From positions 1 to 37,685 of the forward strand of contig NZ_LIQT01000041.1 of assembly GCF_001418415.1 (NCBI RefSeq): a DNA stretch of 37,685 nt, read 5' to 3'. Under the pieces are notes generated by a model. That model saw only the letters and a list, made by a program, of their open reading frames with translations. It did no database searches and was not told the origin of the DNA. A program made the position numbers and the translations under genes. Numbering within the stretch: position 1 is the stretch's first letter; every line of letters begins with the position of its first letter. This document shows positions 6,139 to 26,674 of the stretch, one piece after another. The stretch is from Streptomyces hirsutus. GTDB lineage: Bacteria > Actinomycetota > Actinomycetes > Streptomycetales > Streptomycetaceae.

Positions 6139-6252
6139 GAACCACCCCGGTATCCCGCATCTCCATCCACCCCGATACGCACAAACGGGCATGATCGCTG
6201 ATAGTCCGGGACCAGCCGTCAGGTCTCCCACGGAGACCGCCTAACATCACTC

Positions 6253-8866: not shown

Positions 8867-9832
8867 TCAGCCGGACGTGGTACCGGGCCCGGGGGTCCGC
8901 AGTTGCGGGTCCGTCACCCCGCCGGGGCATGCCATCCGCTCGATCTCCCAGCCGGCGCGCCTGGCCCCGGCCCGGTAGGCGCTTTCGTAGAAGGCAAGTA
9001 CGGCAGCGCGCGGGTCGGCCTCGGTACGGACCTCGTCGTACCGCAACACGGCCAGGTGGCTGTTGCCGCGGGCAAGCCAGCGTGCCGCCGCGGGCCGGAG
9101 CGGCTCCTCCGCCAGGTGCGCGGGCTCCGGAGCGGTGTAGGAGTAGAAAGCGGGCTCGGGGAAGGTGTCGTCTCCGAACCAGAAACCGAAACTGATCACT
9201 TCCCGGGAGTACGCCTCCCGGGTGACCGGGTCGATCTGTTGAGGCTGCTCGACATGACTCCCCGAGAACCGGCTGTGGGCGATGTCGAAGGTGTGCCAGA
9301 AGTGGTGCACCGGGCTGACCTTCCCCGAGTACCCTGCGGCGAATTCCTCCAGTACGGACGCCACCTGGCTGAGGACCCGCCAGTAGCGGTTGGCCTGCGC
9401 GGGATCGTAGATCGCGTGCTCGGTGTCCTCGGCGAACGGTCGGCCGGAGTCGGGCAGGTCGAAGGGCCTGGGCACGTCGAGCTGCACCCGGATGCCCAGC
9501 GCGGCCAGCGAGCCCATGACCGCGTCGTGGAAGGACGCCACGGACTGGCCGATGAGCGGGAGGGAGATCTCCCGCCCGTCCAGAGTCGAAACAAGCAGCC
9601 GATGCGCGACAAAGTCGAAGTCCACCGTGAAGATCGGATGGTCGTCGACCTGGCCCATCGGGCGAGTGGTGGTGCCACGCCCCGTGAGGTGGAACGGGAC
9701 GTTCCACCAGTGGTTGCGCCGGGTGCTGGCGGCGAGACGGACCTTCCCGACGATCTGCGCGAAGCGATGGAGAGTCTCTTTGGTGTCGCGCCACTCGGCG
9801 AGCGGGATCGGCGGGAACAGCTCCATTGTCAT
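8867..9832 (-). CDS. DUF5996 family protein
   Basis: The protein has 321 residues and starts at ATG 9832 behind GGGAGGGAAAGG. It carries the DUF5996 hallmarks: an N-terminal WRDTKETLHRFAQIVGK, then NHWWNVPFHLTGRGTTTRP, then the beta-rich FTVDFDFVAHRLLVST. A central HHFWHTFDIAHSRFSG and a C-terminal PAFYSYTAPEP follow. There is no signal peptide or membrane segment, so it is cytoplasmic. The family is common in actinobacteria and its function is unknown. The gene stands alone. Confidence 0.85.
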   Translation of the reverse strand: MTMELFPPIPLAEWRDTKETLHRFAQIVGKVRLAASTRRNHWWNVPFHLTGRGTTTRPMGQVDDHPIFTVDFDFVAHRLLVSTLDGREISLPLIGQSVASFHDAVMGSLAALGIRVQLDVPRPFDLPDSGRPFAEDTEHAIYDPAQANRYWRVLSQVASVLEEFAAGYSGKVSPVHHFWHTFDIAHSRFSGSHVEQPQQIDPVTREAYSREVISFGFWFGDDTFPEPAFYSYTAPEPAHLAEEPLRPAAARWLARGNSHLAVLRYDEVRTEADPRAAVLAFYESAYRAGARRAGWEIERMACPGGVTDPQLRTPGPGTTSG

Positions 9833-10291
9833 CCTTTCCCTCCCGCCCAACGCTCCTGATGGCCGGACGAGGCTGGATGACCATGATGACCACGCCCGGC
9901 AGGTGCGGCACCTCGTCGAACCCGGAAGGCCTATCGGCGTGCGCTGCGCGAACATGAGCATCGGACAACCGCCCCTCGGACAACCAGCATCCTGAAGCCC
10001 GACCAGCGACTGCCGGCTCCGGTGGCCCATCTACCGGCGGACGGCACGCCCGCGCCGGAGGCGTCGGGAAACGACACCCCCAAGGCCTCGCCGACAAGAC
10101 CCGGCCGGCCGTGCGCCACGTCGCCGCCGCGCTCCCGGTCGACGATCCCCGAACCCTGAAGCCGCCGACGCACCCGCGGAGGGGCCGCGCCGATCACCAC
10201 CGGGCCCCAGCCGAAGGACACAGAACATCCGGATGACGATCGGCAGCCCGCTCTCGAGCCACTACCGGCAGGCTTGCCGGCCGGGCCGCTT
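9833..10291. other. Gap between DUF5996 and the WhiB-like gene
   Basis: About 460 bp with only low-complexity frames. The left end holds the promoter and ribosome site of the minus-strand DUF5996 gene. I see no convincing terminator for the WhiB-like gene, which also runs leftward. Confidence 0.35.
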
Positions 10292-10561: not shown

Positions 10562-10682
10562 GGCACACCTCTACACAGCGTTCAACGGCACCTTGGCACT
10601 TTGCAGCACCAAAGACCCGGCAGAGGTTGCAGAACAGCCTACAACTCGCCGCAGGCCTTCTCCAGCCTTCACTCCCGGAGAA

Positions 10683-21145: not shown

Positions 21146-21163
21146 TGAGCTCGTAACGCGATC
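21146..21163. repeat. Left terminal inverted repeat of the IS
   Basis: TGAGCTCGTAACGCGATC, the exact reverse complement of 22030-22047; preceded by TA at 21144-21145. Confidence 0.92.
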
Positions 21164-21971
21164 ATGATCGGGCATTCTTGAGGCGTCTCCAGCAGATCAG
21201 GCTGCAGGCCAGGGAGACGAAGGCATCGTGGAGTTCGGTGCGGCATTCCCAGCGGACGGCGAGGCGTTTGAACTGGTGGAGCAGGGCGAAGGTCTGCTCC
21301 ACGACGTACCGGAGCTTGCCCAGGCCCTGGATGTTCGGTGATCCTTTGCGGGAGATGACCGGCAGGATGCGCCGCTTGCGGAGCTCTTCGCGGTGGAGGT
21401 CGGAGTCGTAGCCCTTGTCGCCGAGCAGGGCCTCGGGACGCCTGCGCGGACGGCCGGGGCGGCCCGCGACGGGCGGGATGCCGTCGACCAGGGCGAGGGT
21501 CTGGGTGACGTCATTGACGTTGGCCGCAGTGGTGATGACCTTGAGCGGGGTGCCGCAGCCGTCGCAGATCAGGTGGTGTTTTTGCTGCCCGTCTTGCGCC
21601 GGTCGACCGGCGACGGACCGGTGCCGGCACCCCCCTTTTCGCCCGGAGGTGGGAACCGTCCACACACGCCCTGGACCAGTCGAGCTGGCCGGCGGCGTTC
21701 AGCTCGGCGAGCAGGATGCGGTGCAGCTGGTTGAAGACGCCTGCCTTCTGCCAGCGGTCCAGGCGCCGCCAGCAGGTCGTCCGGAGCCGAACCCCAGCTC
21801 CAGCGGCAGCAGTTGCCAGGCCATGTCGTGGTGGAGGACGTAGAGGATGCCCTACAGACACAGCCGGTCCCCCACCGGCTGTGGCCCCGGCGCCCGCTCG
21901 GGCCAGGGCGGCAGCAGCGGCTCGATCAGCGCCCACAAGTCGTCGTCCACGATCCACGGCCGAGTACTCAC
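21162..21971 (-). pseudogene. IS5-family DDE transposase, interrupted
   Basis: Reading from GTG 21971, the N-terminal part (IVDDDLWALIEPLLPPWPER) is typical of IS5/IS427 transposases. It meets an in-frame TAG at 21852-21854, codon 40, where relatives have Gln in a CLQGILYVL-like context. Near 21780 the frame changes (next: CWRRLDRWQKAGVFNQLHRI, then DWSRACVDGSH with the first catalytic Asp). Near 21640 it changes back and continues KHHLICDGCGTPLKVITTAA, LLGDKGYDSD and the C-terminal YVVEQTFALLHQFKRL, with the second Asp and the catalytic Glu region. The DDE residues are present, but one nonsense and two frame changes make it inactive unless programmed frameshifting is invoked. Confidence 0.88.
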
Positions 21972-23866: not shown

Positions 23867-23875
23867 TCCGGAATT

Positions 23876-23889
23876 GATTCAAACCTCAA
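23876..23889 (-). promoter_or_regulatory. Direct-repeat motif (TTGAGGT TTGAATC) upstream of the YceI gene
   Basis: On the minus strand GTTGAGGTTTGAATCAA contains two TTGA half-sites exactly 7 bp apart, 48 bp before the YceI start. It resembles the sites at 24776-24791 and 26176-26191, with the least identity of the three. Confidence 0.35.
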
Positions 23890-23936
23890 CATGCTGGAGG
23901 AGAGTAGAAGACACTCCCTCCCTGAAGGACGACCCC

Positions 23937-24545
23937 ATGGGCCTGCTCAACCGCCACCGCGCCACCGCTCCCGCCCCGGCCACCGACACGACCTCCGCGC
24001 CGGCCACCGCCCGGTTGACCGGCGTCTGGACCATTGACCCCGTGCACAGCAGCATCGCCTTCGTCGCCCGGCACGCCATGATCACCAAGGTCCGGGGCAC
24101 CTTCGAAGCCTTCGACGGCCGCCTGTACCTGGACAGCGAGCGCCCCGGGCGCTCCACCGCCGACGTGACCATCGAGGTCGCCAGCCTCGACACCCGCCAG
24201 GAGCAGCGCGACCGGCACCTGCGCAGCGCCGACTTCTTCCACGTCGAGGCCCACCCCATGCTGTCCTTTCGCAGCACCTTGGTACAGCAGCTCTCCGCGG
24301 ACACCTACCACCTGAGCGGCGACCTGAGCATCAAGGGCGTCACCCGCCCGGTCGTCTTGGACCTGACCCACACCGGCACGGCGACCGACCCCTTCGGCAA
24401 CGAGCGCGCCGGTTTCGAGGGCTCCACCACAGTCGACCGCACCGAATGGGGCCTGACCTGGAACCGCGTGCTGGAGACCGGCGGCGTACTGGTCGGCGAG
24501 AAGGTGAAGCTGGAGTTCGACGTCTCCGCGATCCGCGCTGCCTGA
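23937..24545 (+). CDS. YceI family protein
   Basis: The protein has 202 residues and starts at ATG 23937, seven bases after GAAGGAC. After a Thr/Ala/Pro-rich N-terminus of about 25 residues comes the lipocalin-like YceI barrel: GVWTIDPVHSSIAFVARHAM, then VRGTFEAFDG, RDRHLRSADFFHVEAHPML, GDLSIKGVTRPVVLDL and TEWGLTWNRVLETGGVLVG. These are the family landmarks. YceI proteins bind long isoprenoid or amphiphilic lipids in a barrel. There is no signal peptide here, so this member is cytoplasmic like most actinobacterial ones. It is monocistronic with a candidate operator just upstream. Confidence 0.92.
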   Translation: MGLLNRHRATAPAPATDTTSAPATARLTGVWTIDPVHSSIAFVARHAMITKVRGTFEAFDGRLYLDSERPGRSTADVTIEVASLDTRQEQRDRHLRSADFFHVEAHPMLSFRSTLVQQLSADTYHLSGDLSIKGVTRPVVLDLTHTGTATDPFGNERAGFEGSTTVDRTEWGLTWNRVLETGGVLVGEKVKLEFDVSAIRAA

Positions 24546-24775
24546 CCACCGACCCCGCATGCGGAAGGCAGCCGGCCCGGCCGCCTTGAGGCCCGCGGAA
24601 AGGCGACACGAGCACGAGCCACTCCGATCACGGTGGAATCGCGCCCCGGCCACGCCTGCCCCTCCGCCTCTCGGGGCGCCGTGCTCGGCAGGCCGGCCGC
24701 AACCAACGCGAACCACCCCCGCCGGACTGCGGGGGCGCTGCTGGTCAAACCCGGCAGAAAATGGCATTCTTCATT

Positions 24776-24791
24776 TTGTGCAACATTCAAC
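24776..24791 (-). promoter_or_regulatory. Direct-repeat motif (GTTGAATGTTGCACAA) at the start of the FUSC gene
   Basis: The minus-strand sequence GTTGAATGTTGCACAA matches the site at 26176-26191 in 14 of 16 positions. It covers the presumed GTG start codon of the exporter-like gene, so either the gene is leaderless with the operator on its start, or the true start is further downstream. Confidence 0.45.
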
Positions 24792-26004
24792 TAGTTCGGA
24801 AGAGAGGTCGCCTGCCCCACCTCCCGGGTGGCCGGCGCTGGCACGCCTGGTCAGATCCGTGGCCACCCGCCAGGGCGGGTACATCCTGTCCCATGGCGGC
24901 AAGAATCTGACCGCCGCGCTGCTCGCCTGGCAGGCGACCGCCCCGTGGGGGCAGGGACGGCCCCAGTTCCTGGCCGTCGCCACGGCCTTGCTCGTGGTCA
25001 ACACCTCGACGGTGCACCACTCGATGATCGAAGCCGCGCGCCGGGTGGCGATCCAGGTGGCCGGGGTGACTCTGGCCGTCGCCACCGCCTGGTGGCTGGG
25101 CCCCACCGCCGGGAGCATCATGGCGGTCCTGGCCATCATCCTGGCGGCCCGCGGACGCCGCGCCTTCGACGACCGTCTCCAGGTCGCCTCGACCGCGCTG
25201 CTCACGCTGACGGCCGCGGCGGCGGTGCCGGTGCGCGACCTCGCCCTCCTGGCGCTGGCCACCGTGACCGGTGCCATCGTGGGCACGGCCGTCCACGCCC
25301 TGATCCTGCCCCCCGTGCATGTATCCGACTCCCGGACCGCGGTGCGCCGGCTGGCCCGGGCCACCGGCATGCTGCTGTGCGACATGGGCCGCGGCCTGCG
25401 CAAGCAGCAGCGGACCAGCCACGCACGGGTCTGGCTGTCGAGAGCGCGCCGGCTCGAGGAGGAGATCGCCGAGGCGCAGGACCAGGTGCGGCTGGCCGAG
25501 GACAGCCTGCGCTGGAACCTCCGCTGCTCCGTGCACGGGCCCCGGCGGCCCGGAACCGGCGGCCACGCGCTCCTCGTCCTGCACGGGATATCACTGCAGG
25601 TGCGAGGGATCGCCCGGACCCTGACCGATACCGTGGACGCGTCCCGGGACGACTTCCGCCTGGGGCAGCTGTTCACCGACCAGTACGCCCGGACGCTCGA
25701 GCTGGCCGGACAGGCCGTGGAGGACTTCGCCGAAGTGAACCGGACAGCCGATCCGGAGCACACCGAGGCCGGCAAACGGCTGCGCACCGCGCTCGACCAG
25801 GCTCAGAGCTGGCATGACAGCATGACCGAACTCGTGACACACGGCGCCCTGACCGAACCCGGAGCCTGGCACATCTACGGATCGCTGGTCACCGACGCGA
25901 AACGGCTCCTGTCCGACCTGGACCGCGCCGGGACATCAGAACCGATGACACCAGTGACGCCGATGACGAAGAGCGCGCTCACCACCCGGTTCCCCCGCTT
26001 CTGA
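24778..26004 (+). CDS. FUSC/aromatic-acid-exporter-like membrane protein
   Basis: The protein has 408 residues if it starts at GTG 24778; no ribosome site precedes this codon, so it may be leaderless or start later. The N-terminal half holds about six hydrophobic helices, beginning at HGGKNLTAALLAWQATAPWG and including ALLVVNTSTVHHSMIEAARR and VTGAIVGTAVHALILPP. The soluble C-terminal half is helical with coiled-coil character (ARRLEEEIAEAQDQVRLAED). This half-membrane, half-helical plan fits FUSC/aromatic acid exporter proteins, which export aromatic or other organic acids. It ends at a tandem pair of hairpins. Confidence 0.8.
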   Translation: MQHSTSSEERSPAPPPGWPALARLVRSVATRQGGYILSHGGKNLTAALLAWQATAPWGQGRPQFLAVATALLVVNTSTVHHSMIEAARRVAIQVAGVTLAVATAWWLGPTAGSIMAVLAIILAARGRRAFDDRLQVASTALLTLTAAAAVPVRDLALLALATVTGAIVGTAVHALILPPVHVSDSRTAVRRLARATGMLLCDMGRGLRKQQRTSHARVWLSRARRLEEEIAEAQDQVRLAEDSLRWNLRCSVHGPRRPGTGGHALLVLHGISLQVRGIARTLTDTVDASRDDFRLGQLFTDQYARTLELAGQAVEDFAEVNRTADPEHTEAGKRLRTALDQAQSWHDSMTELVTHGALTEPGAWHIYGSLVTDAKRLLSDLDRAGTSEPMTPVTPMTKSALTTRFPRF

Positions 26005-26039
26005 CCGGCCGGCCCGCCCGTCCTGCCGGGCCGGCCGGT
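26004..26039 (+). terminator. Hairpin overlapping the exporter stop codon
   Basis: ACCGGCCGGCCCG (26004-26016) pairs perfectly with CGGGCCGGCCGGT (26027-26039) over a 10-base loop. It starts inside the TGA stop codon. Confidence 0.8.
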
Positions 26040-26058
26040 GGACCGGTTCGGTGCGGCG

Positions 26059-26083
26059 GTGGGCCGGACACCGTCCGGCCCAC
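26059..26083 (+). terminator. Second tandem hairpin after the exporter gene
   Basis: GTGGGCCGGAC (26059-26069) pairs perfectly with GTCCGGCCCAC (26073-26083) around a 3-base loop, 20 bp after the first hairpin. Confidence 0.75.
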
Positions 26084-26175
26084 TGTCGGCCCGACCCGTC
26101 AAGCACCTTTTCGAGCACACGCCACGTGGGGCACACCACATTCCACGAGTGCCATCACCCCCACCAGCCGAGTAT

Positions 26176-26191
26176 GTTGAATATTGAACAA
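26176..26191 (+). promoter_or_regulatory. Direct-repeat motif (GTTGAATATTGAACAA) upstream of the RsbW-like gene
   Basis: TTGAA is repeated at 7-bp spacing in GTTGAATATTGAACAA, within an AT-rich patch 64 bp before the start codon. It is the best copy of a motif shared with the two preceding genes. Confidence 0.5.
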
Positions 26192-26254
26192 ACATCCCGG
26201 GTCGTCCGTTCCTCCCGCTGCGGCGGGAGGCGCTCCTCGCGAAAGGCCCTTCCC

Positions 26255-26674
26255 ATGACCACTGCCATGACGCTCTCGCCGGCCCGCTCCCTCACCTGGT
26301 CGCTGCCCTGCACTGCTGACGCCCCCGCCCGCGCCCGACGGCTCACCCGCCGGCTCCTGCACGACTGGGGTTTCGACGACGAGTACACCTGCCGCACCGA
26401 GGCCGTCGTCGCCGAACTGGTCGGCAATGCGCTCTCTCACGCCCGGCCCGGCGTCCGCGTCACCTGGCGGCTCATCCGCGACACCGAACAGCCCGCGGTC
26501 CGCGTGGAGGTCATCGACGGGGGCCCCACCCGCTCCCCCGCCGACACCGACCGCGACCCCGACGAACACGGCCGAGGACGCCTGATCGTGGCCTCCCTCG
26601 CCTCCCGGTGGGGCATCTCCCGGCGCCGCGACCGGCACGGATGCATCCACTGGGCGCAGATCGCTCCGGACTGA
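26255..26674 (+). CDS. RsbW-like ATP-binding protein (anti-sigma regulatory type)
   Basis: The protein has 139 residues and starts at ATG 26255, eight bases after GAAAGG. It is a single HATPase_c_2 domain: N-box TEAVVAELVGNALSHA, G1 box VEVIDGGP, and G2 region EHGRGRLIVASLASRWG. Relatives are serine kinases or anti-sigma factors that act with STAS antagonists, and Streptomyces has dozens of orphans. No anti-anti-sigma or sigma gene is adjacent. The direct-repeat motif upstream is shared with the YceI and exporter genes. Confidence 0.9.
   Translation: MTTAMTLSPARSLTWSLPCTADAPARARRLTRRLLHDWGFDDEYTCRTEAVVAELVGNALSHARPGVRVTWRLIRDTEQPAVRVEVIDGGPTRSPADTDRDPDEHGRGRLIVASLASRWGISRRRDRHGCIHWAQIAPD

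Follow-up and report, generated by a model that had tools for sequence, protein, structure and literature searches.

A 37.7 kb stretch of the Streptomyces hirsutus genome (8,506,297 bases in all), contig NZ_LIQT01000041.1 or C346 in our numbering and here called the window, carries three related sequences beside genes for a YceI-domain protein, an exporter-like membrane protein and an RsbW-like ATPase. These sites are very probably operators for MarR-family repressors of the SCO3205/AbsC clade, which would repress all three genes. Computation showed directly what the sites are and how rare they are, that they are conserved at YceI and exporter genes, and that the genome has a regulator gene whose product keeps the base-contacting residues. 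This kind of operator is already known, and the three genes are probable new targets of an SCO3205/AbsC-type regulator. An earlier note made from the letters of this DNA had pointed to three similar sequences at the three genes and recognised no named regulator for them; the sequences all lie within a base or two of where it placed them, and a name for such sites exists, that of SCO3205, together with its paralogue AbsC.

Three sites resembling a published operator consensus

SCO3205 of Streptomyces coelicolor is a MarR-family protein with the pseudo-palindromic consensus TTnAAnnnTCAA, as given in the excerpts of the 2013 report that serve as our reference throughout (PMC3737563). Those excerpts describe two operators, bound with dissociation constants of 1.3 and 2.4 nM, between its own gene and a divergent dioxygenase gene, and two more likely operators before genes for a polyisoprenoid-binding periplasmic (YceI-like) protein and a malonic semialdehyde reductase-like protein; they also report structures of the SCO3205-DNA complex (3ZPL) and of AbsC (3ZMD), name Arg72, Ser73 and His77 as the base-touching residues, and state that the homodimer was crystallised on a symmetrized operator (PMC3737563).

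In the window, GTTGAATATTGAACAA stands before the RsbW-like gene (26176-26191, plus strand), GTTGAATGTTGCACAA on the start of the exporter-like gene (24776-24791, minus strand), and GTTGAGGTTTGAATCAA at 23874-23890 on the minus strand, 46 bases ahead of the YceI ATG at 23937; for this last site the note's placement at about 23873-23889 and its gap of 48 bp shift slightly. The published consensus is matched exactly at the YceI and RsbW sites and with one mismatch at the exporter site. Taken as operators, they lie 43 bases before the YceI ATG and 63 before the RsbW ATG, with the third overlapping the exporter GTG, so that the sites are placed as SCO3205-type operators are, shortly upstream of the regulated gene. 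The note had described a direct repeat of 7-bp period, which gives way here to a pseudo-palindrome: the half-site TTSAA nearly equals its own reverse complement, and two direct copies 7 bases apart are therefore a side effect of the symmetry.

Table 1. Genes, predicted operators and putative promoter in the window (positions counted from its first base; E, expect value)
Feature	Position	Strand	Details
Predicted operator before YceI gene	23874..23893	+	TTGATTCAAACCTCAACATG; exact TTnAAnnnTCAA at 23878-23889 (+)
YceI-domain protein gene	23937..24545	+	202 amino acids; Pfam PF04264, E 9e-51
Putative leaderless exporter promoter	24742..24770	+	TGGTCA, 17 bases, CATTCT, 7 bases before GTG; upstream hexamer chosen by eye
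Predicted operator at start of exporter-like gene	24775..24794	+	TTTGTGCAACATTCAACTAG; 1 mismatch to TTnAAnnnTCAA, at 24779-24790 (+)
Exporter-like membrane protein gene	24778..26004	+	GTG start 24778 in frame, within predicted operator
Predicted operator before RsbW-like gene	26173..26192	-	TTTGTTCAATATTCAACATA; exact TTnAAnnnTCAA at 26177-26188 (-); best-scoring place in window
RsbW-like ATPase gene (HATPase_c_2)	26255..26674	+	139 amino acids; PF13581, E 1.4e-10

Counts are given as rows or as distinct places. With up to three mismatches allowed, a 16-mer pattern returned three rows in the window, at two distinct places; shuffles averaged 0.12 rows, and none of 100 had three. The pattern missed the YceI-side site, which also stands at chance level against an 18-base palindrome (7 mismatches, shuffle P 0.34). 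That same site matches the published consensus exactly, as just 15 places in the whole genome do. Scoring was made with 20-column matrices built from 60 sites at 28 SCO3205-orthologue loci and 60 sites at 28 YceI loci, with palindromic sites counted on both strands and with this genome's own orthologue locus and the window YceI locus excluded. The joint matrix gave 30.1 for the RsbW site, 21.0 for the exporter site and 20.3 for the YceI site, the next distinct place in the window scoring about 0; a score of 20.2 was reached in none of 200 dinucleotide shuffles (highest 20.18) and by none of 200 column-permuted matrices. With the independent matrices the YceI-side site is the third or fourth row and the third distinct place.

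The site family across the genome and genus

Genome-wide pattern counts, each set against a reversed-pattern control, show the site to be rare, which was one of the checks suggested by the earlier note. A 14-base core with up to one mismatch occurs at four places (control 0), namely the exporter site, the RsbW site and two places on contig C276 before paralogous frames for small secreted proteins, and the 16-mer with up to three mismatches gives 16 rows against 5 in the control. All four core places conform to the 18-base pseudo-palindrome TAGTTSAAYRTTSAACTA, which with up to three mismatches is found in 24 rows at 12 distinct places (control 2 rows); each of the 12 matches on both strands, the pattern itself being symmetric. 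The strongest members are palindromes or near-palindromes, TTGAACGTTCAA on C668 (both strands) and TAGTTGAACATTGAACTA on C276. As a pure model TAGTTSAAYRTTSAACTA fits most sites and misses the YceI site, and it was replaced by the published consensus and the matrices.

The exact consensus TTnAAnnnTCAA occurs in 16 rows at 15 distinct places genome-wide, whose context was assigned by eye from open reading frames. Ten of them precede genes: those of a flavin monooxygenase, a small secreted protein, a malonic semialdehyde reductase and a pirin, the window YceI and RsbW genes, the MarR region of contig C623 (two places) and a second YceI gene (two places). The second YceI gene and the malonic semialdehyde reductase gene are thus of the published target kinds.

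A set of 101 genomes from the genus, S. hirsutus among them, held TAGTTSAAYRTTSAACTA with up to one mismatch in 19 genomes, at one place each (control 0). Outside S. hirsutus this leaves 18 places, 15 of them ahead of a luciferase-like monooxygenase gene; 14 of these loci were found through the protein start MQFGIFTVGD, the ATG following the site after 19 to 64 bases, and the remaining one (locus L051) was confirmed as PF00296. The copy of this monooxygenase in S. hirsutus belongs to NCBIfam TIGR04036 (CE1758 family) and adjoins a TIGR04037 flavin mononucleotide (FMN) reductase. The other three places stand before pirin genes (L045 and L047) and a YceI gene (L035). A redox and aromatic-compound theme is common to the genome- and genus-wide sites, with many flavin and redox enzymes among the adjoining genes.

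Conservation at the YceI, exporter and RsbW-like genes

Conservation, the second check that the note suggested, was assessed in sets of related loci comprising the best 30 YceI loci, the best 30 SCO3205-orthologue loci and all 11 exporter loci, every locus being turned to gene orientation; the outcome is positive for the YceI and exporter relatives, and for the RsbW-like gene only one other genome of 150 gave a match. The YceI query matched 55 of 61 genomes. In 29 of the 30 best loci, that of the window included, the exact consensus lies between 300 bases upstream of the match and 30 bases into it (the miss is L073), compared with none of 30 in the control. A transposase DDE domain fragment (DDE_Tnp_1, E 7.8e-18) at 21162-21665, upstream of the window YceI gene, suggests that this region may have been mobile.

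Relatives of the exporter-like gene were found in 10 of 246 genomes. No exact SCO3205 consensus occurs in the searched stretch of any of the 11 loci; their constant variant has a TGCAA half-site, and the motif [AG]TGCAANNTTCAAC at the start codon is kept in nine of them (L063 carries CAG in place of CAA, and the motif is lost in L059). The start codon stands at the same place in all 11, as GTG in ten and ATG in L057. Within the site the serine codon is TCA at every locus and the glutamine codon CAA at nine, while the third codon varies; in 11 genes of this genome both codons are rare at about 2%, TCA accounting for 3 of the 158 codons for serine and CAA for 2 of the 99 for glutamine. A CAYNNT hexamer precedes the start codon by exactly 7 bases in ten of the 11 (the miss is L056). 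These loci are related, and the start-codon, codon and hexamer counts are accordingly not independent. No ribosome-binding sequence was seen upstream of the window GTG, and this together with the fixed spacing of the hexamer leads us to infer that the exporter transcript is leaderless and that its first bases lie in the operator.

The gene at 24778 likely encodes an aromatic-acid exporter. All six family members scanned match FUSC_2 weakly (best 8.9e-4) and two of them match ArAE_1 (best 6.3e-6); the window protein itself stays below the curated scores of PF06081 and PF13515 (FUSC_2 E 0.68, 10.5 bits against 25.6). A profile of six relatives gave one weak row against solved structures (E 0.044), which was not used, and the AlphaFold2 model was too poor for use, with a mean predicted local distance difference test score of 45.1. 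The TGA marked inside five of the exporter matches is the ordinary gene end.

The RsbW-like gene matched in two of 150 genomes, this one and G141, with the site present in both. An inverted repeat, CCTCCCGC...GCGGGAGG, lies at 26211-26230 in the leader between operator and ATG, and one of its arms is changed in the related genome.

Candidate regulator genes

The S. hirsutus orthologue of SCO3205 is encoded on contig C623 (locus L012), as judged from a protein match to PDB 3zpl at E 6.8e-94. Arg72, Ser73 and His77 are all retained, in a numbering that assumes a 14-residue tag in the crystal chain, with which its length of 177 residues against 163 native ones agrees. As in S. coelicolor, the gene is divergent from a dioxygenase-type gene, whose product matches NF007914 at 1e-49, below the curated cut-off, and the intergenic region holds two exact-consensus sites (6191-6202 and 6233-6244), the first of which, TTGAAACCTCAA, is close to the YceI-side operator of the window. 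The orthologue query matched 53 of 61 genomes; the published count of likely orthologues is 62 of 112 actinomycete genomes, by the excerpts of PMC3737563. The exact consensus lies within 160 bases upstream in 29 of the 30 best loci (the miss is L207) and in none of 30 control stretches.

A gene on contig C81 is, by its match to 3zmd at E 8.5e-91, the orthologue of AbsC. Its contact helix keeps the serine and the histidine, has lysine in place of arginine, and the gene is preceded by TAGTTCGTCTTTCAACTT.

A further MarR gene, on contig C76 (L028), has a site of its own, TAGTTGAACTTCGAACAA, and was set aside as a master regulator: its contact helix differs and its relatives carry other variants. 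In 30 related loci the exact consensus was absent upstream, and 13 of the 30 had a sequence within five mismatches of the 18-mer. Upstream of these genes (L097-L126) stand TAGTTGCACACTCAACGA in one branch and TACATGCACATGCATTGA in another, which suggests a diverged operator for this group.

Proposed mechanism

From what is established for MarR repressors and from the SCO3205 structure, a dimer would span the site of 22-24 bases and block the promoter. A MarR homodimer would thus occupy each 22-24-bp pseudo-palindrome in the window and stop transcription of the YceI, aromatic-acid-exporter-like and RsbW-like ATPase genes until an inducer releases it; an aromatic acid or a quinone-like compound is the most plausible candidate. 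At the exporter gene the operator would span both the GTG and the likely start of the leaderless transcript, and a bound repressor would therefore occupy the initiation site itself. Salicylate was bound in the AbsC pocket and the residue pair concerned is kept in SCO3205, according to the excerpts of PMC3737563; a target gene for an aromatic-acid exporter would be in keeping with this. We infer binding in S. hirsutus, repression, the nature of the inducer and the assignment of paralogues to sites.

Alternative explanations

Several observations weigh against assigning all three sites to SCO3205-type repressors. The exporter site has G for the second consensus T, at position 7 in the published numbering, one of the four most sensitive operator positions, where T to C is the worst change in the excerpts of the 2013 report (PMC3737563), and SCO3205 may therefore bind this site weakly. 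The region of G141 is about 90% identical overall to that of the window, so that conservation hardly tests the RsbW site. The third YceI gene of this genome (contig C100) has no exact consensus upstream. Two of the 15 exact places lie within coding sequence (C181 and C213), three are of ambiguous context (C47, C383 and C523, the last being 96 bases before a transporter-like frame), and the reversed control still gives 5 rows. In its loose form, with up to one mismatch, TTnAAnnnTCAA gives five rows in the window; shuffles average 2.66, and 13 of 100 have as many, so that this form is no evidence by itself. The published consensus had itself served to pick the matrix sites, and some shuffles reached the lowest of the three window scores, one of 200 with the SCO3205 matrix alone and three of 200 with the YceI matrix alone.

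The first of these points bears on which protein reads which site. In a sub-case of the explanation that we prefer, which we regard as a serious possibility falling somewhat short of even chances, SCO3205 would read the YceI and RsbW sites, and AbsC or another relative would read the exporter site. The constant TGCAA half-site of the exporter family and the absence of the exact consensus from its loci favour such a division, as do the presence of an AbsC orthologue with a lysine-for-arginine change and TAGTTCGTCTTTCAACTT before its gene, and the expectation, voiced in the 2013 excerpts, that SCO3205 and AbsC have overlapping regulons or common operators (PMC3737563). Against it, the matrix of SCO3205-orthologue operators alone ranks the exporter site second in the window. 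Of the earlier note's idea of one regulator at three genes, a shared regulatory site is well supported; a single regulator is less certain, since members of the exporter family have one deviating base in common relative to the SCO3205 consensus and a paralogue may read their site.

The remaining alternatives dispense with MarR-type operators at some or all of the sites. The exporter motif might be conserved coding sequence at a gene start and no operator, since it is in frame at all 11 loci; the rare TCA and CAA codons, whose counts come from related loci and are not independent, the variable third codon and the second rank of the site on matrices derived from other genes make this quite unlikely. 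A direct-repeat reader of the response-regulator or Streptomyces antibiotic regulatory protein type, as the wording of the earlier note would imply, could take each site as two TTG(A) copies at a spacing of 7 bases, but such readers use same-orientation repeats without dyad symmetry, and the strongest genome members are palindromic or nearly so; with SCO3205 homodimers crystallised on a symmetrized operator as well (PMC3737563, excerpts), we consider this very improbable. Equally remote is a chance likeness among patches that are AT-rich while the genome is GC-rich, for which the behaviour of the YceI-side site against the 18-base palindrome and the commonness of the loose consensus in the window might speak: the joint-matrix score of even the weakest site was matched by no shuffle and no permuted matrix, and the sites are conserved at YceI and exporter loci.

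Relation to known systems

Operators of the SCO3205/AbsC clade, as preferred here, agree with the S. coelicolor operators O3204, O3205, O5533 and O5049 in the same pseudo-palindromic consensus (PMC3737563, excerpts; PDB 3zpl). The YceI-like gene in the window and the malonic semialdehyde reductase gene elsewhere in this genome are target kinds common to both systems, and the regulator orthologue has the same base-contact residues. In contrast, exporter-like and RsbW-like genes are not among the targets named in the excerpts of PMC3737563, and the exporter site differs from those operators in its TGCAA half-site and its position over a start codon. AbsC (SCO5405; PDB 3zmd), as a paralogue expected to share operators, has its orthologue on C81 here; in S. 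coelicolor it controls the coelibactin zincophore cluster and another nonribosomal peptide synthetase cluster, according to an excerpt of PMC9739823.

In its broader aspect the comparison matters because SCO3205 is widespread and has a DNA-bound structure, yet in the excerpts of the 2013 report its authors could not assign it a function and found its targets to lack a clear physiological theme (PMC3737563), and an excerpt from 2022 still labels it a regulator of unknown function (PMC9739823). A likely exporter target makes the release of the repressor by aromatic acids directly testable. Tentatively, and with more doubt than confidence, one may picture SCO3205 and its paralogues as running a Streptomyces aromatic and quinone-stress regulon of flavin monooxygenase and FMN reductase, WrbA, pirins, a nitroreductase-like enzyme, YceI and small secreted proteins, to which some strains would add an exporter/RsbW-like two-gene module linkable to partner-switching signalling, the exporter being controlled by a repressor that occupies the start codon of its leaderless transcript. 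A search of the open-licence literature found no paper on such an SCO3205 regulon.

RosR (Cg1324) of Corynebacterium glutamicum, also of the MarR family, was considered as a name for the regulator and set aside. One 18-bp RosR site, TAGGTGATATGACAACAC (PMC7764795, excerpt), is loosely alike. Target types of RosR include monooxygenases, an FMN reductase and a polyisoprenoid-binding protein; as a point of difference, it is said to be sensitive to hydrogen peroxide.

Other loci carrying the site

On C276 (L005) an operator at 10618-10635 is followed, to about 14868, by genes for a WrbA-type quinone reductase, a pirin, a carboxymuconolactone-decarboxylase-family protein and a pyridine nucleotide-disulphide oxidoreductase, possibly a redox gene cluster. 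Small secreted proteins of similar make, their kinship judged by eye, are encoded at L005 (5278-5739, plus strand, and 9730-10227, minus strand), L052 (2978-3499, minus strand) and L061 (820-1164, minus strand); the two copies scanned had no Pfam match. Both copies in this genome have an operator. Two further genomes have a gene of this sort next to that of the exporter, and a similar site lies close by.

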